32,168 nt of DNA from a bacterium (GTDB lineage Bacteria > Armatimonadota > Chthonomonadetes > Chthonomonadales > Chthonomonadaceae): assembly GCA_900299305.1 (NCBI GenBank), contig OMJJ01000308.1, forward strand, positions 1 through 32,168. The letters are read 5' to 3'. The position numbers and the translations under genes were made by a program. Every line of letters begins with the position of its first letter. Positions within the stretch are counted from its first letter, which is position 1. Of the stretch, positions 1-13,208 are shown piece after piece. The notes under the pieces were generated by a model, which saw only the letters and a list, made by a program, of their open reading frames with translations, ran no database searches and was not told the DNA's origin.

Positions 1-12
1 CTAGTGCATTTG

Positions 13-43
13 CCCTTTCTCCTGCGTGTAGCGGGGGAAAGGG
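13..43. repeat. Hairpin from an intergenic dispersed-repeat-like sequence
   Basis: CCCTTTCTCC (13-22) / GGGGAAAGGG (34-43), followed by ttgggataggggg. Similar in style to arms of the 16937-17215 element. Confidence 0.45.
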
Positions 44-90
44 TTGGGATAGGGGGCTGTAAGCAGTACAAGAGCCGCTAAGAGCAGACC

Positions 91-1275
91 CTACTCCTGT
101 AGAAAGACAAAAACGCCCTTTTTGTTGGATACCACCACGTCCATCTTCCCATCTCTGTTCACGTCCGCAGTAGTGACCTGTGTTCCTACCCCTGAATCGT
201 TGTCGATGAGATGTCTTACCCACTCCACTTTGCCGTTTACGCGCTTATACTCGTACCAGTAGAGGACGGCGGCGGAGTTTGGGTTGACATCTCCGTTTGG
301 TCCGTGCGCCCAAAAACGCTTGCCCGTTACAAAGTCCATCTGTCCATCCCCATTAATGTCTGCCATTGCCATCCCATGCGACTGTGAGAACGAATCGTCT
401 ATAGTGTGCTGAACAAATTCGGTTCCGGTGGCGGTACGCCTCTGTTCAAACCACCACACCCCTACATTGTGCGCGGAGCTACACACCACATCGGGCAAGC
501 CGTCTCCGTTTACATCCACCACATACATCTGGGCGCAAGCGGCACTAAAATTTGCCGGAACAAACTGCCAAGGGGACTGGTGCGGGTCTTTGGGGGCAAG
601 CCAGTAGCCTCCGTTGCAGAGTATGTCGTTGCGCCCATCGCCGTTGATGTCTCCTACCCCTAACCCGTGCGAAAACCTCTGTGTGCCGGGGGCTTTGGGT
701 AGGCTAACAACATGACGCTCCCACTCGTCTAGGGTTCCCTTTTTTGGCTCTATCCACGCCATCGTGTTGTCGTCTGCCATTACAAAAACGGAGTGCTTTT
801 TGTCCAACAGGGGGGTAAAGGTAGGGCTTTCGTTGCAGGGGTTATCAGCAATCGGATGCTCTTTCCAAAAGCCTTCCTTATTCTTGGGGTTTTCGCGCCA
901 AAAGGATTTTGTGCCGGGCAAGCCTATCACAATCTCATCTACCCAACCGTCATGGTTCACATCAGCGGTAAAGACAAAAAAAGCGTTGCTATAGCCGTGT
1001 GCGCCGTCGTACTTTCCCGGCTCTGCAATGAGGTGAGGCTTCCAGTTGGGGGCTTCGTACCATATCTCCCCTACCAGAATATCGGGCTTTCCGTCGTGGT
1101 TTACATCCGCTACGGCGCACCCCTCCGAACGAAATTCACGGTCTAGCACGATTTTACGGAAAGTAGGTTCGGGGTCTTGATGCTTTGCGGCGGCGGGACG
1201 CGGGTGCAGTGCCACACCCCCAATACCAAGCAGAGCAAGGGGGGCAGTAAGCCAAGCGAATAGGCGTAGTTTCAC
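91..1275 (-). CDS. FG-GAP/VCBS-repeat secreted protein
   Basis: Repeated DVNxDGxxD / DINGDGxxD motifs (DVNHDGKPD, DINGDGRND, DVNGDGLPD, DINGDGQMD, DVNRDGKMD). Hydrophobic N-terminus (LRLFAWLTAPLALLGIGGVAL). The ORF track starts at 1311, but a GTG at 1275 preceded by gagagg avoids overlap with the upstream gene. Confidence 0.85.
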   Translation of the reverse strand: MKLRLFAWLTAPLALLGIGGVALHPRPAAAKHQDPEPTFRKIVLDREFRSEGCAVADVNHDGKPDILVGEIWYEAPNWKPHLIAEPGKYDGAHGYSNAFFVFTADVNHDGWVDEIVIGLPGTKSFWRENPKNKEGFWKEHPIADNPCNESPTFTPLLDKKHSVFVMADDNTMAWIEPKKGTLDEWERHVVSLPKAPGTQRFSHGLGVGDINGDGRNDILCNGGYWLAPKDPHQSPWQFVPANFSAACAQMYVVDVNGDGLPDVVCSSAHNVGVWWFEQRRTATGTEFVQHTIDDSFSQSHGMAMADINGDGQMDFVTGKRFWAHGPNGDVNPNSAAVLYWYEYKRVNGKVEWVRHLIDNDSGVGTQVTTADVNRDGKMDVVVSNKKGVFVFLQE

Positions 1276-1276
1276 G

Positions 1277-2071
1277 TTAGTCCTCTCCTTTGAGCGGGGG
1301 TTCCAAGCCAACCGCCTCGAAGTCGGAAGGGCGGTCTAAATCGGTAGCAATCTCTGGATGTAGGCAGATAACCGCCCGTGCCTCCGTTCCCAATAGCCGT
1401 GATACCCGCGCCTCCAGTAGTGGCAAGGTGAGCAGCTTGGGGGAGATTAGTTGCGATAAGAGCAAGCGAAACACGGTTCCCATTCCTAACATAGACGCAA
1501 GGCGCAACGGGCTTTTTCGGGCGGCGTAGGCAGAGGCTATCCGTTCTCGTTGCGCTTTTAGGGAGGTGGGTTTTACGAGCATAAGGTTGCCGCCCGTAAA
1601 CTCGCCCTCCTTCAGTTTCAGGCTGGTGCGTTTTACGTTGGGATAACGGGCGTAGCAGTTCGCAACGGGCACGATAGGATAGAGTATCTCTGCCCCGCTT
1701 GCTTGCGCGGTTTTGAGCGCGGCTTCCACGAACTCTGTAATCGTTTCGGGAGAGAGGAAGGGCAAGTCTGCCGTTGCAATGAGCAAGTAGGGCGCGTTTA
1801 AGGCAGGTTCGAGGCACGCGAAGACGTTCTCTACAAATCCACCCGAATCGGCTATCTGCTGATAATCACTGCTTGGCGGGACATTACCCACCACCGCAAT
1901 CTGCCCGATACTCTCTGTCCCTTGTAACGCCTCTACCACCCTATCCAGTAGACGCTTGCCCTGCACCACCACCAGCGCACGGTTCTCTTGTCCCGTGAGT
2001 GCCTGCATTTCGGGCTTTGCTTTGCCCCCTGCAAGGATAGAGCAGGGGATTTTCTGCACGGTTCCGCTCAA
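1277..2071 (-). CDS. NTP transferase domain protein (MobA-like nucleotidyltransferase)
   Basis: N-terminal SILAGGKAKPEM resembles the LAGG(x) nucleotide-binding motif; LLIATADLPFLSPETI resembles the D(x)P motif of MobA-like transferases. Confidence 0.75.
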   Translation of the reverse strand: MSGTVQKIPCSILAGGKAKPEMQALTGQENRALVVVQGKRLLDRVVEALQGTESIGQIAVVGNVPPSSDYQQIADSGGFVENVFACLEPALNAPYLLIATADLPFLSPETITEFVEAALKTAQASGAEILYPIVPVANCYARYPNVKRTSLKLKEGEFTGGNLMLVKPTSLKAQRERIASAYAARKSPLRLASMLGMGTVFRLLLSQLISPKLLTLPLLEARVSRLLGTEARAVICLHPEIATDLDRPSDFEAVGLEPPLKGED

Positions 2072-2074
2072 GGT

Positions 2075-2821
2075 TTAGCCTGACTTTCGAGCGCACCACA
2101 AAGCGGCGTTACAGAGAATACGGCGCACATTGGGGTCGAAGTAGGTAGGGTAGGTTTCGTGTCCGGGACGGAAGTAGAAGACGCGCCCCGCCCCCTCTCC
2201 CTCTCCGATACCCTTACCGGGTCCGGAGGTAAAGCCCTCTGTTTTGCCGCGCCCTACCGTCCAACACGCTCCACTAGGGAAGTACTCACCGCCAAGCGGG
2301 AAGTAGGACTGTAGCACAAGGCACTGCGGAGGGGGAACATCGAAAGGTGCACCGTACATCTCTTCACGGTCTAGGGTAAAGTCGGAGACCCCTGCCGCGA
2401 TGGGGTGACGGGGGGCGCAGACGGTTATCTCTTCGGTATCGGCGGGGGTGGTCTCTCGCCAACCGCCTTTAAGGTGTCCGGGGCACGCCAGCACCCACTG
2501 CAAGGTTTTGGAGTAGTGGGCAGAGTGGAGTGCGATATAGCCCATTCCCCGCTCGTGAACGTGGGTAAAGACGCGCCGCGCCGTCTCCTCCCAAACCTCG
2601 TGATGACGTGCATGACCCCACCAGAAAATCACATCCGTTTCGCTCAAAATCTCTTCCGAACAGCCCTGCTCCGGCATATCAATATTGGCAACCCGCGCCT
2701 GAATACGGGGGTCGAGAGCCTCTAGCCCCTCTGCTATCGCGCCGTTGATACCGGTGGGGTATATCTCTTTAGGGGCATGAGAGGGGTTCTCGTCCCAAAC
2801 AAGCACACGTATCTTATCCAT
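2075..2821 (-). CDS. ThuA-like domain protein (trehalose utilization family)
   Basis: VWDENPSH..YPTGINGAIAEGL, DVIFWWGHARHHEV, GMGYIALHSAHYSK, GRVFYFRPGHETYPTY are typical of ThuA-like proteins. Confidence 0.85.
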   Translation of the reverse strand: MDKIRVLVWDENPSHAPKEIYPTGINGAIAEGLEALDPRIQARVANIDMPEQGCSEEILSETDVIFWWGHARHHEVWEETARRVFTHVHERGMGYIALHSAHYSKTLQWVLACPGHLKGGWRETTPADTEEITVCAPRHPIAAGVSDFTLDREEMYGAPFDVPPPQCLVLQSYFPLGGEYFPSGACWTVGRGKTEGFTSGPGKGIGEGEGAGRVFYFRPGHETYPTYFDPNVRRILCNAALWCARKSG

Positions 2822-2909
2822 AGTAAAACCGTTCCTTTATTTGTGGTACTAAGGTAACTATTCACCAAACAGAGCCGAATCTCCTTGTAAAAAACGTAGG
2901 AACATGAGT

Positions 2910-2915
2910 TATAAT
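2910..2915 (+). promoter_or_regulatory. Candidate sigma70-type -10 box (TATAAT) for the DUF1501 gene
   Basis: TATAAT at 2910-2915; weak -35 TTGTAA at 2885-2890 with a 19-nt spacer; 40 nt upstream of the ATG at 2955. Confidence 0.45.
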
Positions 2916-2954
2916 AGAGTTGTTGTAACAAAGATTTTGGAGGAGTATTTCGCT

Positions 2955-4349
2955 ATGCCGCCCAAAGACCCCGCTACGCCCATTTCGCGCCGCCGCCTTC
3001 TGAACGAAGCCAGTATCGGCTTCGGTTCGCTTGCCCTCAACTACCTCTTAGCGCAAGAGGCACACGCGCAAAACGCCCAAAACTTCCGTAAGCGTAAAGA
3101 GTTACCCAGCGCACTCTCTCCAAAGCCAACCATGTTCCCCGCGAAAGCGAACGCGGTCATCTTCCTCTTTATGCACGGCGGTCCCAGCCATGTAGACACC
3201 TTCGACTACAAGCCCATGCTCGCCACCTACAACGGCAAAACCACCGGCAACGGTAGAGCGGTACTCGCAAGCCCCTACCAGTTTTTGAGGCGCGGCGGCT
3301 CTGGTCTACCCATTGCCGAGATATTCCCCGAACTGGCTACCTGCTCCGACGATATGTGCCTTATCCACTCCATCTATAGCACTACCGGCAACCACACCCC
3401 TGCCTGCCTAGAGATGAATACCGGAAAGATACTGCCGGGCTTCGCCTCTATGGGCAGTTGGGTGACTTATGGCTTGGGAACCCAAAACCAGAACCTCCCC
3501 GCCTATGTGGTGCTACACGACGGAATGCCCTCCGGCGGCTCCTTAAACTGGAATAACGGCTACCTTCCTGCGGTCTATCAGGGGAATGAGTTTCACTCGC
3601 AAGGCTCTCCCATTCGTAACCTGCAACCTGCTTGGAAGCCCAAAGTTACTCAGCAGAGGGCAATTCTGGATATGTTGGCGGATGTGAATATGGATCATCT
3701 GGATTCGCATACCGGAGACAGCGACCTCGAAGCCCGTATCGCGGCGTATGAACTCGCGTTTCGGATGCAGATGCAAGCCCCCAAAGTGGTGAATGTAGAT
3801 TTGGAGTCGAAAGAGATAAAGAACTTCTACGGACTAGACCGCCCCGAAACCCAAAACTTTGGACGCAAGTGCCTTTTGGCGCGGCGTTTGGTGCAGAATG
3901 GGGTGCGCTTTGTCGAGATTTTTCATGGCGGTTGGGACGCACATAACAACTTGGGGCAAGAACACCGCCGCCGCGGGGTAGAGATAGACAAGCCCATCGC
4001 GGCACTCCTAAAAGACCTCAAACAGTCGGGGTTGCTAGATACCACGCTTGTGGTGTGGGCAGGAGAGTTTGGGCGTACCCCCGCCGCTCAGGGCAATGGG
4101 CGCGACCACCATGCGGCGGCACATACCGTCTGGATGGCAGGGGGAGGCGTGAAGGGCGGTATCAAAGTGGGACAGACGGACGAACTCGGAGAGCAGATAG
4201 CCTCTGCCAAACACCCCATCCGCGACATTCACGCTACTATCCTACAGGCGTTGGGTATCGACAATCACCTGCTTACCTTCCTACATAATGGTCGCTTGCA
4301 ACGTCTAACAGATACAGGCGGCTCGGTTATTCCGGGTGTACTCGCCTAG
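2955..4349 (+). CDS. DUF1501 domain-containing protein, Tat-exported
   Basis: MHGGPSHVDTFDYKP, GKILPGFASMGSWVTYGLG, EFGRTPAAQGNGRDHH motifs. Twin-arginine-like N-terminus SRRRLLNEASIGFGSLAL. Start moved from 2904 to the ATG at 2955, preceded by ggagga. Confidence 0.9.
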   Translation: MPPKDPATPISRRRLLNEASIGFGSLALNYLLAQEAHAQNAQNFRKRKELPSALSPKPTMFPAKANAVIFLFMHGGPSHVDTFDYKPMLATYNGKTTGNGRAVLASPYQFLRRGGSGLPIAEIFPELATCSDDMCLIHSIYSTTGNHTPACLEMNTGKILPGFASMGSWVTYGLGTQNQNLPAYVVLHDGMPSGGSLNWNNGYLPAVYQGNEFHSQGSPIRNLQPAWKPKVTQQRAILDMLADVNMDHLDSHTGDSDLEARIAAYELAFRMQMQAPKVVNVDLESKEIKNFYGLDRPETQNFGRKCLLARRLVQNGVRFVEIFHGGWDAHNNLGQEHRRRGVEIDKPIAALLKDLKQSGLLDTTLVVWAGEFGRTPAAQGNGRDHHAAAHTVWMAGGGVKGGIKVGQTDELGEQIASAKHPIRDIHATILQALGIDNHLLTFLHNGRLQRLTDTGGSVIPGVLA

Positions 4350-6868: not shown

Positions 6869-6924
6869 CCACCCCGTATCGGTTTTCTTACCTTGTGAAG
6901 AGAGTCGTTGGGGTGGTTTTGTTT
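6869..6924 (+). terminator. Putative terminator downstream of rpmE
   Basis: CCACCCC (6869-6875) pairs with GGGGTGG (6910-6916), followed by TTTTGTTTT. The long loop lowers confidence. Confidence 0.45.
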
Positions 6925-7243
6925 TAAGACCGATTATACTTCGGGGCATTTCTCTATCAAATCCCACAAAACAGAAACCTCAAAAAACACCTCTCTAAAA
7001 TTTTCAAGAATCTTTTTCCCTCTTCACAAAATCGCGAAGGAGAATCCAAAACACTGTCGTATCTCTTGGGTAGAAAGGCTATCTATCGTATACCAGAACC
7101 TACCACCAAAGAAGCAAAAACGTTCGGCACTACCGATAGTTGCCCCCTCCAACAACGAAAACGGCTCGTTGTTCGCACTGGCACACGCAAAGATATCCCA
7201 ACCTAATCTCGTGCCTCTGCTCTCTTTGGAAAGGAACTTGACC

Positions 7244-9247
7244 ATGTTTCTTAGACATCCTTGTAAGCCAACGAAGGCACTGCTTGGAGCAACCTTCCTT
7301 CTCCTCCTTTTAGGTGTTAGCACCTCTGTCTTCGCGCAAGGCACTCCCAATGCGTGGGGATACAACTTCTTTGGGGCACTTGGTGACGGTAGCAAAACCA
7401 ATCGCAAAGCCCCCGTATCCGTTGCCAACCTCGACCACATCACCCAACTCTCGGCAGGATACGACTTTACACTCGCACTCCGCTCGGATGGAACCGTATG
7501 GACATGGGGTGGTGGTAGCCCGAATGCAACCCAAGTTCCCGGAATAGACAAGATCGTACAGGTCGCCGCAGGACACGGGCACTCCCTCGCCCTCAAAGTA
7601 GATGGAACCGTATGGGCATGGGGTGCCAACGGAGTAGGACAACTCGGTGACGGAACCACCACTACCCGCAACAGCCCTGTACAGGTCGTTGGACTCACCG
7701 ATGTCGCCAACGTTGCTGGTGGAGGGGCGCACTCCCTCGCCGTAAAACTGGACGGAACCGTATGGGCGTGGGGCTGGAACAACGCAACCCAACTCGGAAC
7801 CGGAACCAACATCAACTACAGCGCGGTTCCCCTTCAAGTCTCTGGGCTAACGGGTGCGATTCAGGTCGCGGCAGGTTTTTACCAGTCTCTCGCCATAAAA
7901 GCAGATGGAACCGGCTGGGGGTGGGGCATGAACTCCAACGGACAGGTAGGAGACGGAACCACCAACGGGCGCAATGTTCCCGTGCAGATTGTGGGTCTTA
8001 GCGGTGCGCTCTCCATTGCCGGGGGCGGCTCTCACTCTATCGCCGTTAAAAACGACGGAACCGTGTGGGCATGGGGCTACAACGGAAGTGGGCGGCTCGG
8101 AGATGGAACCACCAGTCAGCGTAACTCCCCTGTGCGCCTTACTGGCGTTACCGGAGCGATTGGTGCGGCGGCAGGAGACGAACACTCGGTAGTTCTCAAA
8201 GCCGATGGAACCGTTTGGGGTGTAGGTAATAACCAGTACGGGCAGGTCGGAGATGGAACCAACACGACGTGCCTCACTGCCGTTCAGGTCAGTGGGCTTA
8301 CAGGACAGACCGCCCTCTCTGGGCGACACAACCAGAGTTTCGCCGTTGCCTCCGTTCCCCTTACACTACAACGGCAAACCTCCCTCACTATCTCGCCCAT
8401 CACTGCCCTCTATGCGGCTCCTATTACGGTAAAAACGGCACTCACGCTACAAGGAACCAGTTTCCCGCTTGGCGGCAGAGCCATTGTCCTTACAGTAGAT
8501 GGAACTACGGTTGGCAGAGCCACTACTGCTACTACGGGAGATGTCTCTATCACCGTGCCAGCTCTCTTCTCTATTGGCAAGCACACGATAGCCATCTCCT
8601 TTGCCGGAGATGATGTCAATGCGGCAACCTCTGCTAGTGCCCTCCTCACGGTCAATAAATCGACCACCTCTATCAATGCTGGCAATGTCACCGCTGTCGT
8701 AGGTAGCACCGTTACCCTAAGTGCAGTACTCTCTCGCAAATCGGACGGAGCGAAAATGGAAGGGGCAGAACTCGTCTATATGATAGAGTCAACGGTTATC
8801 GGCAGTGCCACTACCGATTCCAGTGGAACCGCCAAACTTATCTACACCATCCCAGACACCTTTGGGGCAGGCGCGAAGAGCCTAACTGTAAGTTATGCAG
8901 GAGATGCCTACTACAAAGCAGGGAAAGCGGTAAAAACCCTCACGATAACCAAAGCCAAAACCACGCTCACACAGTCTAGTGTAACCGGAAAAGTCGGCAC
9001 CAACGTCAACCTTTCCGCTACCCTCAAGCGTAGAGATGGAACCGCGCTTGCCAACAAAACCATTCACTTCCAAGTAAACGGAGTAGCAGTAGGAGACGCT
9101 ACCACCGACAGCAACGGAGTAGCCACCTTCGTCTACTTTATTCCCACCGACACCGTAAAAGCCAAATATCCCCTTGCGGTATCGTTTGACGAAGACGATG
9201 TAAACTTGGGAGCCACCAAAACCGGTGCAAACCTCACGGTGAAGTAG
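7244..9247 (+). CDS. RCC1-repeat (regulator of chromosome condensation-like) protein with C-terminal bacterial Ig-like repeats
   Basis: Repeats such as HSLALKVDGTVWAWGANGVGQLGDGTTTTRNSPVQVVGL at ~150-bp period, then three LT(x)nG...ATTDSSGxAxxxYxIP Ig-like repeats. Signal peptide LLGATFLLLLLGVSTSVFAQ after the ATG at 7244; the ORF-track extension to 6908 looks non-coding. Confidence 0.85.
   Translation: MFLRHPCKPTKALLGATFLLLLLGVSTSVFAQGTPNAWGYNFFGALGDGSKTNRKAPVSVANLDHITQLSAGYDFTLALRSDGTVWTWGGGSPNATQVPGIDKIVQVAAGHGHSLALKVDGTVWAWGANGVGQLGDGTTTTRNSPVQVVGLTDVANVAGGGAHSLAVKLDGTVWAWGWNNATQLGTGTNINYSAVPLQVSGLTGAIQVAAGFYQSLAIKADGTGWGWGMNSNGQVGDGTTNGRNVPVQIVGLSGALSIAGGGSHSIAVKNDGTVWAWGYNGSGRLGDGTTSQRNSPVRLTGVTGAIGAAAGDEHSVVLKADGTVWGVGNNQYGQVGDGTNTTCLTAVQVSGLTGQTALSGRHNQSFAVASVPLTLQRQTSLTISPITALYAAPITVKTALTLQGTSFPLGGRAIVLTVDGTTVGRATTATTGDVSITVPALFSIGKHTIAISFAGDDVNAATSASALLTVNKSTTSINAGNVTAVVGSTVTLSAVLSRKSDGAKMEGAELVYMIESTVIGSATTDSSGTAKLIYTIPDTFGAGAKSLTVSYAGDAYYKAGKAVKTLTITKAKTTLTQSSVTGKVGTNVNLSATLKRRDGTALANKTIHFQVNGVAVGDATTDSNGVATFVYFIPTDTVKAKYPLAVSFDEDDVNLGATKTGANLTVK
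7487..8225 (+). repeat. Tandem ~150-bp coding repeats (RCC1 blades)
   Basis: GATGGAACCGTATGG-like core recurs near 7487, 7601, 7751, 7902, 8053 and 8203. Confidence 0.8.
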
Positions 9248-9273: not shown

Positions 9274-9309
9274 CAGCCCTGTGCTTATAGAGAGTACAGG
9301 GCTGTTTTT
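9274..9309 (+). terminator. Intrinsic terminator downstream of the RCC1-repeat gene
   Basis: CAGCCCTGT (9274-9282) / ACAGGGCTG (9296-9304), followed by TTTTT. Confidence 0.85.
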
Positions 9310-9460
9310 CTCTCTGATTTCCCTACAAAAACCTATTTTCTGTATTTTAAGGAACCCGATTGCCGTATCTGCGTCTAAACAGGAAGGAGAATCGAAAGCA
9401 GTGCGCGAAAATAGTACTGAAAATTTTTATCCGCCACTGTCACGAAATCCAAAATCGTCC

Positions 9461-9488
9461 GTCTAGTACAGTATAAGATTTACTAGAC
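9461..9488. promoter_or_regulatory. Palindromic operator candidate overlapping a -10-like element
   Basis: GTCTAGTA (9461-9468), N12, TACTAGAC (9481-9488); TATAAG at 9472-9477 lies in the spacer; 29 nt upstream of the ATG at 9518. Confidence 0.55.
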
Positions 9489-9517
9489 TCCGAAAACACG
9501 GGCGCAGGAGGCTATCC

Positions 9518-11077
9518 ATGATAGCACAAAACCTAACCACAAACGCCCGACTCCTGTCCTCTCAGGGGCTTCCGCCTACAGAGCTAGACATAGAGCCGGT
9601 ACAGGCAGCGGATATAATACGCAGACGCTTTGCGGCGCGTGCCATCTCTTTCTTGAGCAACACACGCACGCTAGAAGACGGACGCACCCTTCCCGCACGA
9701 CTCAGTGCCAACGACTGCTACGTCGCTATGGCAGAGGCGTGTAAGAAGATGGCGCGGGTAGCAGTACGCAAATATCAGGCAGAACCCCACCTTCATGCAC
9801 TGGGCTACGCCGACGCGCTGGAAGTTCTCTTCCCCGACCCCACTGCCTACCTTGCCCGTTGCATCCGCTCTGTTATCAGCGACACCGAACGCCTAAACCG
9901 CCGAGAAATCCCCACCGTCTCGCTAGACCAGCCTCTGCGCGGTCTAAGCACAAACGGAGAGACCGCGCTTCTACTCCAAGATACCCTTGCTGTAGAAGAG
10001 ATTTCCGCGCAACCCGAACCGGCGTTGCTAGATATGGATGACCGCGAAGCCTTCCGTAATGCGTTGACTCACGCCCTACAGAGCATTCCGCCCAACTACC
10101 TTGCCGCTCTGCAAAAAGATATGGCGCGTGACCAAGAACGCCAATCGGGTATCAAGGTGGCTCCTGAAACGGATAGAGAACGCCAGACCGTCTGTCGGGC
10201 ACGTGCCGCCCTCTCGCAGATTATTCTAAAAGAGTGCGGTATGGATAATCCGTTCGTGCGCCTCCTCGCCCAACAGAGGAGTAGCCGCGTGCGCCAAAAG
10301 TCGTCCCCGTCTCAAAAATGGACTGCGGAGCGTCAGAGCGAACTGTTCCGCAAACTGATGAACACCCCGTGGGCAGAGCGTTCCGAAGAACCCTCCCCCG
10401 AAGGCAATGTAGAAGAGGCTATCATCAACGAAGTCAGCGTATCGCGCCCCGTCGCCTCTCCCTCACCAGAGATGCGCCAAGCGATGCGTGTGATGGATAC
10501 CTACACGTTAGGCGATAACCCTACCACCGAACACACCCAAGCGCAAGCCCTCTACGAGCAAGCCCGACACGCTCGTAAAGTAAAAAATGACCTCGAAGAG
10601 GCACTAAAACTCTATCGTGCCGCTTTCGACCTAGATAATCGCTTCTTTGCAGCCTATAATGAAGTAGGAGTACTGCTCTCACAGATGGGCAACCTCCGCG
10701 AAGCACTCAAGGTCTACCTGAAAATTATCGAAGACCCCAACGCAGGAGACCACCGCTTCATCGCCGCGACCAATGCCGCCGACATCTACCTCACTTGGTA
10801 CGATGCAGGGCGCAACCGAGAAAGAAATATCGAACGCGCTCTTCACTACGCGCAAATCGCGATGCAGAAACCCACGCCCATGCGAGCCTGTAATCTGCTA
10901 CTCGCTTTTGTAAAAGATAAGTTTTATCTGGAAGCACAGAAGGTAATGGAGACCGTTTTGAAGAATAACCTCCGTGAATGCCCCGCGGAGAAGTTTTTGC
11001 AGACCCTGTTTCAGATACGAGACACCGATTTAGTCACCTGGTGGAGTTGGCTAGACGGCGAACTCGGAAGGGAGTAA
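9518..11077 (+). CDS. Putative regulator: diverged sigma-70-like N-terminal region plus C-terminal TPR domain
   Basis: N-terminal AYLARCIRSVISDTERLNRREIPTVSLDQPL resembles the end of sigma region 2 plus linker; ALQSIPPNYLAALQKD...TVCRARAALSQ resembles region 4. C-terminal AQALYEQARHARKVKNDLEEALKLYRAAFDLDNRFFAAYNEVGVLLSQMGNLREALKVYLKI is TPR. RBS AGGAGG at 9506-9511. Confidence 0.6.
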   Translation: MIAQNLTTNARLLSSQGLPPTELDIEPVQAADIIRRRFAARAISFLSNTRTLEDGRTLPARLSANDCYVAMAEACKKMARVAVRKYQAEPHLHALGYADALEVLFPDPTAYLARCIRSVISDTERLNRREIPTVSLDQPLRGLSTNGETALLLQDTLAVEEISAQPEPALLDMDDREAFRNALTHALQSIPPNYLAALQKDMARDQERQSGIKVAPETDRERQTVCRARAALSQIILKECGMDNPFVRLLAQQRSSRVRQKSSPSQKWTAERQSELFRKLMNTPWAERSEEPSPEGNVEEAIINEVSVSRPVASPSPEMRQAMRVMDTYTLGDNPTTEHTQAQALYEQARHARKVKNDLEEALKLYRAAFDLDNRFFAAYNEVGVLLSQMGNLREALKVYLKIIEDPNAGDHRFIAATNAADIYLTWYDAGRNRERNIERALHYAQIAMQKPTPMRACNLLLAFVKDKFYLEAQKVMETVLKNNLRECPAEKFLQTLFQIRDTDLVTWWSWLDGELGRE

Positions 11078-11081
11078 TTCA

Positions 11082-11240
11082 ATGAAAATACGAAACGCAT
11101 TCGCGCTCTTTACACTCACTCTTACACTTGCCGCACTTGCTGGCGGTTGGACTTACGGCGGTGGTATCAAAGATACCCCCACCAAAGTCGCCGATGGACA
11201 AGAGACACACGGTATTGCCCCTACCGTAAAGAACGCCTAA
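11082..11240 (+). CDS. 52-aa secreted small peptide (absent from the ORF track)
   Basis: Manual translation: MKIRNAFALFTLTLTLAALAGGWTYGGGIKDTPTKVADGQETHGIAPTVKNA*. SD AAGGGAG at 11068-11074; ATG 4 nt after the upstream stop. Positive N-terminus plus hydrophobic core is signal-peptide-like. Confidence 0.65.
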   Translation: MKIRNAFALFTLTLTLAALAGGWTYGGGIKDTPTKVADGQETHGIAPTVKNA

Positions 11241-11279
11241 ATTTTAACTCCGGATTCTATAGGAGTCCTACTTCGCTTT

Positions 11280-11312
11280 GCCCCCTCCTAAGCGGTAACG
11301 CTTTTAGGGGGC
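11280..11312 (+). terminator. GC-rich hairpin (terminator or RNA element) after the small peptide ORF
   Basis: GCCCCCTCCTAAGCG-GTAA-CGCTTTTAGGGGGC: long stem with small internal mismatch and a GTAA (GNRA-type) loop. No clean U-tract. Confidence 0.5.
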
Positions 11313-11348: not shown

Positions 11349-13208
11349 ATGTTACGCAAAGCCTACGTTTGCGCCCTCGCCGTGCTTGCACTTCTCCTGC
11401 CCCTCTCCCATGCAAAAGCACAGTCCTCCGCGCCCACAGACCGCGCCGCCCTTACCAGCACCATCCGCAACCTCGAAATCGAGGAGCCCGCTCGCTATCA
11501 AGTACTAAAAGACCTGCTTGATATAGACCCGCAGATAGGCTTCGAGGTACTGCGCGACACTTGGAAAGATCTCCGCTCTGTCGATGCCAAAATCGCTCTG
11601 CTAAACACCTACCTCGCCGCCGCAAACCCTCACATCGTCGAAATTGCCTATATCGGCGCAACTGACCCTAGCCTACTGGTTCAGAATTTTGCCCTCAATC
11701 TCGCCGATAGCATCAGTTTCCGCTCCTTTAGCGACGACTACGAGGCGTTTTTGGAGTGGCACAAAACTGCCGTCAAGAAAACTCTCAAAGAGATACTCAC
11801 CGAAGGCGTAGCCTATTTTACCAAACGCTACCAGCAAGCAGATGACAGCACCCGTGAACTCCTTATCAATCAACTCGTAAATAAAAACTTCACCTCGCCC
11901 ACCCGTATCGCCAAAGCCCGCCGCGAAGCCGTGCTAGAATCGGGGCTAATGGAGGTTATTGGGAAATCTATCGTACCCGATGCCATTCCCAACACCCTCC
12001 AGATGGTGTTCCAGTTTTGTAAGCAGGTGCGCCCCGACGAACCCTTCCTAAAACGTTATATTCTCCCCCTCTGTAAGCACGAACAGCCCGTAAGCCTCCG
12101 CCTCCAAGCCGTATCCGTACTAGCAAGACCCGACTGCAAATGGGCAGTACCCACCGTTCTCCAACTCTATCTAGATGAGTACCCCGAAAGCCTCGTATAC
12201 AACGTAGGGCAGACCCTTGGGCAGATAGGCGATGTCTCGGTTATCCCTACCCTTATTGGGGTGCTAGATGCTGATAACAGCCGTGAAGGTGCGCTTTTAA
12301 TTGGTAATGTGCTATCACAACTAACAGGAGTGTTTATTAACGAGATCCATGATGCGGTGTGGTGGCGTGACTGGTGGCGCAAAAACAAGGTTCGCCTACC
12401 GGAATCTCTGCGTAACGCCACTATCCCCAAAGTGGTCATAAAAAAACGGCAAGCACAGTCCGACTTCAACGCCTCCTTTGTACGCTCCGAATCTCGCCAA
12501 GCCGACGGTACTCCCCAGTCTACCTACTGGCTACTTATCCCTAGTAACGGTGGGGGTGGGCGACGGGCATTCAGAGGTGAAATCGTAGAAGGGGCAGTGC
12601 GCCGTCCTCGCACTCTAGGCTTACTTATCGTGCTACAACCGGGCGATGGTAACGGGGCTACCGAAACAAACACGTGGCAGGAGATAGCCCAAGCCAACCT
12701 GAAAGGAAGGTATCTGGTGGCTCTGCCCGTCGCACCCCGCTGGAATCCCAATCAGAAAACGACGTGGCTTACTAATGCCAACAAAGCAGAGGTTAAAGAG
12801 GCGAAGTTTACAACAGAAGCATTTATCAACAACATCGTGGCGGACGTAGCGACCAACTACCCCCTAGACAACACACGGGTCTTTGTTATGGGCGCAACCG
12901 ATAGCGGATTGGGGGCATACGCGGGTATCTTAGACGAAAAATCGCGCGTAACAGGCGGCTTTTTCTACTCTGCCGCCTTCAAATCTGCCCAACTCCCACC
13001 CCTCAAAAACGCAAAAGGCAAGCGTTTTTACCTCCTGCACCCCAAAGAGAACAAAACCTACCCCTACCTAATAGCCGAAACCGCCAAAACCCTTCTCACT
13101 CAAAACGGGGCCACCGTAAAGCTAGAGGAGTTAAAAGCCGCCGTCGCTTCGGAGATTCCGCAAAACACGGCTACCGCCCTAGAGTGGCTAGAGACGGGAA
13201 AGCAGTAA
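11349..13208 (+). CDS. Secreted protein with HEAT-like repeats and a C-terminal alpha/beta-hydrolase-like domain
   Basis: Signal peptide (LRKAYVCALAVLALLLPLSHAKA); repeats such as LRLQAVSVLARPDCKWAVPTVLQLYLDE and VGQTLGQIGDVSVIPTLIGVL; C-terminal DNTRVFVMGATDSGLGAYAGILDEKSRVTGGFFYSAAF resembles esterase folds. ATG at 11349 preferred over the TTG at 11343. Confidence 0.65.
   Translation: MLRKAYVCALAVLALLLPLSHAKAQSSAPTDRAALTSTIRNLEIEEPARYQVLKDLLDIDPQIGFEVLRDTWKDLRSVDAKIALLNTYLAAANPHIVEIAYIGATDPSLLVQNFALNLADSISFRSFSDDYEAFLEWHKTAVKKTLKEILTEGVAYFTKRYQQADDSTRELLINQLVNKNFTSPTRIAKARREAVLESGLMEVIGKSIVPDAIPNTLQMVFQFCKQVRPDEPFLKRYILPLCKHEQPVSLRLQAVSVLARPDCKWAVPTVLQLYLDEYPESLVYNVGQTLGQIGDVSVIPTLIGVLDADNSREGALLIGNVLSQLTGVFINEIHDAVWWRDWWRKNKVRLPESLRNATIPKVVIKKRQAQSDFNASFVRSESRQADGTPQSTYWLLIPSNGGGGRRAFRGEIVEGAVRRPRTLGLLIVLQPGDGNGATETNTWQEIAQANLKGRYLVALPVAPRWNPNQKTTWLTNANKAEVKEAKFTTEAFINNIVADVATNYPLDNTRVFVMGATDSGLGAYAGILDEKSRVTGGFFYSAAFKSAQLPPLKNAKGKRFYLLHPKENKTYPYLIAETAKTLLTQNGATVKLEELKAAVASEIPQNTATALEWLETGKQ

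Follow-up and report, generated by a model that had tools for sequence, protein, structure and literature searches.

Does a bacterium outside the Firmicutes control a sigma factor with a small exported peptide? This question is raised by a two-gene cassette in a 32,168-nt stretch of DNA (the window) from a genome of the order Chthonomonadales (Armatimonadota), which bears out the non-Firmicute lineage proposed in an earlier note made from the sequence alone. The cassette consists of a regulator gene and, directly behind it, a small open reading frame (ORF) for a predicted exported propeptide, and its features are collected in Table 1.

Layout and conservation of the cassette

Table 1. Coordinates of the cassette features within the window.
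Feature	Position	Strand	Remark
Terminator-like hairpin of the upstream RCC1-repeat gene	9274..9304	+	separates the cassette from that gene
ECF-type promoter TGTCAC-N16-CGTCTA	9438..9465	+	TGTCAC at 9438-9443, CGTCTA at 9460-9465; present upstream of all orthologs with readable sequence
Palindrome GTCTAGTA-N12-TACTAGAC	9461..9488	.	overlaps the -10; not conserved in congeners
Ribosome-binding site AGGAGG of the regulator	9506..9511	+	
Regulator, 519 aa	9518..11077	+	ATG start; divergent ECF-type sigma factor with C-terminal TPR domain
Sigma2-like region	9596..9901	+	residues 27-128, boundary approximate
Sigma4-like region	10019..10237	+	residues 168-240, boundary approximate
TPR array	10535..10975	+	residues 340-486
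SD-like AAGGGAG of the small ORF	11068..11074	+	within the 3' end of the regulator gene
Predicted exported propeptide, 52 aa	11082..11240	+	ATG; basic N-terminus, hydrophobic core, variable segment
Conserved heptapeptide DGQETHG	11193..11213	+	residues 38-44 of the propeptide
Strong hairpin 3' of the propeptide	11280..11312	+	probable operon end

The regulator ORF with a C-terminal TPR array is present as the earlier note had claimed. The 52-aa ORF that it had placed downstream with an SD of its own was confirmed, starting after a gap of 4 nt and preceded by the SD-like site, and the strong hairpin that it had seen beyond this ORF is real (-31.7 kcal/mol, z -3.5). Since a hairpin stands on either side, the regulator gene and the small ORF look like one transcription unit. 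The palindrome reported at the putative promoter fared less evenly; it is unexpected by chance and does overlap the -10 element with its left arm, and it was rejected as a conserved operator because it is lost even within the genus, in three congeners.

Upstream of the cassette (window 6908-9247) lies the gene for a protein in which Big_3_5 Ig-like domains come after RCC1 repeats, and downstream of it (window 11349-13208) that for an exported HEAT-repeat protein. Among the genera checked, the HEAT-repeat gene lies 3' of the cassette only in g1 and g6, which argues that the conserved unit consists of regulator and peptide.

The regulator gene is single-copy in its own genome, and full-length relatives, 47-88% identical, were found in 29 of the 30 other genomes of the order; the sole genome without an ortholog is 64% complete. 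No full-length relative outside the order was found among 251 genomes drawn from the phylum. A plasmid, phage or viral origin was rejected, as the cassette has no relatives among plasmids, phages and viral contigs. Wherever the sequence of a relative is readable, the small ORF, 51-78 aa long, adjoins the regulator. It starts between -13 and +10 nt from the regulator stop, most commonly with a 4-nt overlap and usually with a purine-rich SD in front, and is apparently translationally coupled to the regulator. In one genome (G030) the two genes lie at the ends of different contigs. Regulator and small ORF stay paired across the order while the other neighbours differ, and it is near certain that this coupled module is a real, conserved unit.

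The regulator and its promoter

A Pfam scan of the regulator and its orthologs returned TPRs only, and none of the Pfam sigma models matched. A structure search with the whole model likewise gave only matches of helical-repeat type, chiefly TPR proteins, and the N-terminal part was therefore modelled apart. When this model (residues 27-262, pLDDT 77) was compared with a PDB library of 350,542 chains, nearly all of the top matches were sigma factors, the first being the ECF sigma factor AlgU. Taken singly, the matches score weakly (E 0.05, global TM about 0.2), and the argument for a sigma fold thus rests on the consistency of the matches across the library; a low global TM would be expected if both sigma domains were placed differently. 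An N-terminal profile was colinear, from sigma2 into sigma4, with the profile of the ECF sigma factors of the same genome (P 6.5e-5), which number some two dozen, as compared to P 0.18-0.6 for control profiles made from the TPR part or by column shuffling. In a distant genome, a canonical ECF sigma ORF was among the matches to the family profile. Fold, profile and the promoter described below support the assignment of the N-terminus as a very divergent ECF-type sigma factor. These results agree with the sigma-like output domain that the earlier note had suggested, and the check on whether the N-terminus is unrelated to any transcription factor found it sigma-like and left the suggestion standing.

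Searched as a single sequence, the regulator matches several Pfam TPR models over approximately residues 340-410, each below the curated cut-off, and TPRs were detected in all 30 orthologs. AlphaFold predicts paired helices over about 340-515, and the TPR extension as a whole spans about 200 residues (approximately 320-519). Within the protein, conservation peaks at TPR3, with a mean entropy of 0.75 bits versus 1.40 and 1.42 bits for the sigma regions, and invariant Asn, Asp, Arg and Lys residues are found in TPR3 and TPR4.

The promoter of the cassette has the bipartite form that is typical of ECF promoters, and its -35 resembles the TGTCAC-like element of ECF41 promoters. Within 260 bp upstream, the pattern GTCAC-N16/17-CG was found at 29 of 29 regulators (shuffles: mean 1.07, max 4), GTCAC-N16-CGT at 26 (mean 0.14, max 2), and TGTCAC-N16-CGT at 22 (mean 0.04, max 2), where the shuffle counts overstate the significance because related sequences are not independent. 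A conserved ECF-type element upstream of all readable regulators implies autoregulation, and we infer that the regulator drives its own operon from the TGTCAC-N16-CGT promoter.

In a scan of ten genomes, matches to TGTCAC-N16-CGT were barely more frequent than those to a reversed-pattern control, which suggests that the regulon is probably small; a large regulon was rejected on the same count. The sole recurrent candidate target among the matches followed up is a gene for an exported protein of about 650 aa, which the element precedes in the genus and whose relatives occur in 28 of the 31 order genomes, the weakest being partial matches. Outer-membrane beta-barrels show an alternating pattern and a C-terminal F. 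Nearly all complete copies of the protein have this pattern and end in F (LGxHF, LGxRF), as barrels do, and the protein is thus a predicted outer-membrane beta-barrel. The element is present at 13 of the 22 barrel-gene upstream regions examined, 11 times in the exact 16-nt form; all 13 fall among the 15 Chthonomonadaceae loci and none among those of f2 and f3. Its spread over six genera in the exact form, or eight including the 17-nt spacer, is a stronger point than the shuffle counts. The regulator probably controls the barrel gene in Chthonomonadaceae, and another ECF sigma factor of the genome could read the same promoter. Further GTCAC-N16-CGTAT sites are alike in pairs of congeners (G014:C57:9291 and G016:C201:13777; G001:C696:6754 and G003:C529:5804) and are possible additional targets.

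The propeptide and its conserved heptapeptide

The 52-aa propeptide ends in ...VADGQETHGIAPTVKNA and has no match in the family libraries used. It carries the export signal that the earlier note had read in it, with a basic N-terminus and a hydrophobic core, and the same two parts were found in all 29 propeptides, a signal sequence from which export is predicted. The expectation that a small ORF with such a signal would be conserved beside the orthologs held across the order wherever the sequence is readable. The expectation of a variable C-terminal tail failed, since the part of the propeptide most conserved across the order is a heptapeptide near the C-terminus. For this reason, the peptide does not look like one of a pherotype-diversifying quorum-sensing system.

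The middle of the propeptides is poorly alignable across the order, and the heptapeptide is their only part conserved at that depth. DGQETHG or a close variant (DGVETHG, DGIETHG, DGQESHG, NGQETHG and, once, DGQETGG) stands near the end of all propeptides with readable sequence. The motif forms the very C-terminus in family f3 and in G017, the exception being the cut-off G030 copy with a short tail, and the propeptides of family f1 have a short, variable tail after it. One propeptide (L007:1259-1492, minus strand) contains two copies of the motif 18 residues apart (VVDGQETHGKGGKGRIFRVADGQETHGK). In the heptapeptide the residues are constant and the codons differ freely at the third position (GGA/GGG/GGT/GGC, ACA/ACC/ACG/ACT), and this synonymous variation indicates that selection acts on the peptide. 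Judged by comparison of sequences, the small ORF is not a chance ORF, as it lies next to the orthologs with the same heptapeptide throughout the order.

DGQETHG has a single match in its own genome, and the idea that it is a general tag of many secreted proteins was rejected on that basis. The few motif matches outside the order are about as many as in the control and lie in large proteins; the one in G073 falls in a frame of 62 aa, which lies on the strand of a permease gene and overlaps it. Within the order, the only other exact DGQETHG outside the propeptides, which is about the number expected by chance, is internal to a 1204-aa exported protein (L087, G009:C529, minus strand, ORF 2-3613). 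This protein has a short N-terminal domain in common with the co-regulated barrel family.

A change of heptapeptide position 3 from Q to V or I accompanies changes in the TPR domain such as S388 to I, M or H. This covariation was rejected as evidence of contact because all six carriers belong to one clade.

A candidate peptide-gated sigma factor and its relation to known systems

The best explanation that we can offer, to which we give an even chance, is a sigma-TPR one-component system with a co-translated exported peptide as the ligand of its TPR domain. The sigma-TPR regulator and the small gene would form a two-gene switch, in which the sigma factor would drive its own operon and, in Chthonomonadaceae, the outer-membrane beta-barrel gene. 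The small gene would yield a short propeptide that is exported, and the propeptide or a released fragment may bind in the TPR groove, which is conserved, and modulate the sigma factor. Transcription would then respond, in a feedback loop, to how much peptide is present or to its state of export. That the heptapeptide itself is the TPR ligand has about even odds; the linkage, its place as the sole conserved part, the TPR groove, the duplication in L007 and the analogy with RRNPP systems are consistent with this role, and the lack of the diversification typical of many pheromones counts against it. The fuller proposal, in which a constant exported DGQETHG gates the sigma factor through the fused TPR domain in an RRNPP-like manner that arose independently outside the Firmicutes, with the barrel gene co-regulated, falls a little short of even.

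The constancy of the peptide favours a role in self-monitoring or as a timer over species-specific quorum sensing. In addition, a search for the OppA family (PF00496) found no member in G017, G020 or G025, all of them >90% complete and carriers of the cassette, and none of six genomes tested has an OPT importer; in those genomes the heptapeptide has no known import route. Taken together, the missing diversification and the import results argue against simple quorum sensing by re-import, to which an extracellular role of the peptide and sensing of its precursor are serious rivals.

According to the first of these, the peptide is an output rather than a ligand, acting beyond the cytoplasm as an exported envelope factor such as a partner of the barrel while the TPR domain senses something else. 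The signal sequence in all members, the conserved motif on the exported side, the barrel gene with the same promoter element in Chthonomonadaceae and a motif constancy that suggests a fixed partner would all fit such a factor. We nevertheless hold it to be somewhat unlikely, as the barrel element is limited to one family while the peptide is order-wide, and the constant coupling of the peptide to a TPR regulator is left unexplained.

Alternatively, the unexported precursor in the cytoplasm could be the ligand, so that export failure would lead to its accumulation close to the sigma-TPR protein made from the same mRNA, and to a change in sigma activity with no re-import at all. Such a monitor of export would account for the translational coupling, the constant motif, the envelope target gene and the retention of the cassette in genomes in which no OppA-type proteins were detected. 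It does not predict the motif duplication in L007 or the loss of the tail in f3, and as a separate account it seems improbable to us; it is at the same time a variant of the best explanation, with the peptide remaining the TPR ligand.

A secreted antimicrobial or modified (RiPP-like) peptide under an ordinary sigma factor regulator would also be small and exported with a conserved core. Such peptides do not usually have a core that is constant over an entire order, the downstream neighbours differ between genera with no modification or immunity gene retained next to the peptide, and we consider this very unlikely. It is scarcely credible that the small ORF, short and lacking a family-library match as it is, goes untranslated and is conserved as a DNA or RNA feature, given that the third codon positions vary while the residues stay and that SD-like sites and signal sequences are kept.

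The RRNPP systems (Rap-Phr, NprR-NprX, PlcR-PapR, Rgg-SHP and PrgX) are the closest comparison for the ligand reading, and simple TPR-receptor/propeptide circuits have been described as a trait of Firmicutes (PMC10075063). Membership was judged by the published five-criterion signature (PMC10075063). The propeptides are of the small size in question (10-100 aa; here 51-78 aa in all members), 29 of 29 have a basic N-terminus and a hydrophobic stretch, which makes Sec export probable, the receptor has C-terminal TPRs, and the two genes adjoin each other (-60 to 400 bp; here -13 to +10 nt, with one genome contig-split), while the receptor, at 519 aa, narrowly exceeds the range of 250-500 aa. In both kinds of system a TPR receptor gene comes first and a small propeptide gene, with an export signal known there and predicted here, comes directly after it, the conserved or mature part of the propeptide being C-terminal, and duplication within the propeptide, seen here in L007, is also known there (PMC10075063). 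They differ in that the output here is sigma-like instead of an HTH or phosphatase, the host is not a member of the Firmicutes, the peptide is constant over the order, the receptor is 519 aa long, and re-import does not have support in every member. The family libraries used showed no sequence homology to RRNPP receptors.

From the sigma factor side, ECF42 proteins (Sven_0747, ECF-10) also carry a TPR extension, about 200 residues long, on an ECF-type sigma factor (PMC8999054, PMC9023288), and for this extension a partner has been proposed but not identified (PMC8999054). The sigma part here is far more divergent and comes with a co-translated exported peptide, and the usual ECF42 neighbour, a YCII/DGPF-domain gene (PMC8999054, PMC9023288), was not found when ten window proteins, drawn from both sides of the cassette, were scanned. 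ECF41 (SigJ) is a one-component sigma factor that likewise has a fused C-terminal sensor domain (PMC8999054, PMC9023288); that sensor is SnoaL-like where ours is a TPR domain, and ECF41 has no peptide gene. In its proposed working the cassette resembles a cross of RRNPP and ECF42, and is to be filed under neither. The literature searched, largely without subscription papers, contained no comparable sigma-TPR/exported-peptide system and no mention of DGQETHG, nor did any paper in it unite extracytoplasmic function, peptide pheromone and tetratricopeptide.

Our analysis points to a gene switch of a new kind, one that would be controlled by a peptide. As the sigma-TPR protein comes with a built-in candidate ligand of seven residues throughout the order, the question reduces to a binding assay. 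If the proposal is true, the cassette would provide a candidate peptide circuit for Armatimonadota and the first candidate target gene for one of the many sigma factors of this phylum.

Outside the order, G161 encodes a divergent sigma-TPR-like protein of 433 aa (L089:2867-4168, minus strand), whose TPR part matches with an E of 1e-25. A wider family around this protein was rejected, as it has no relatives within G161's own family. A small signal-peptide-like ORF without DGQETHG begins 13 nt past the stop of this G161 gene, and the pair may represent the cassette in another version, with a different peptide.
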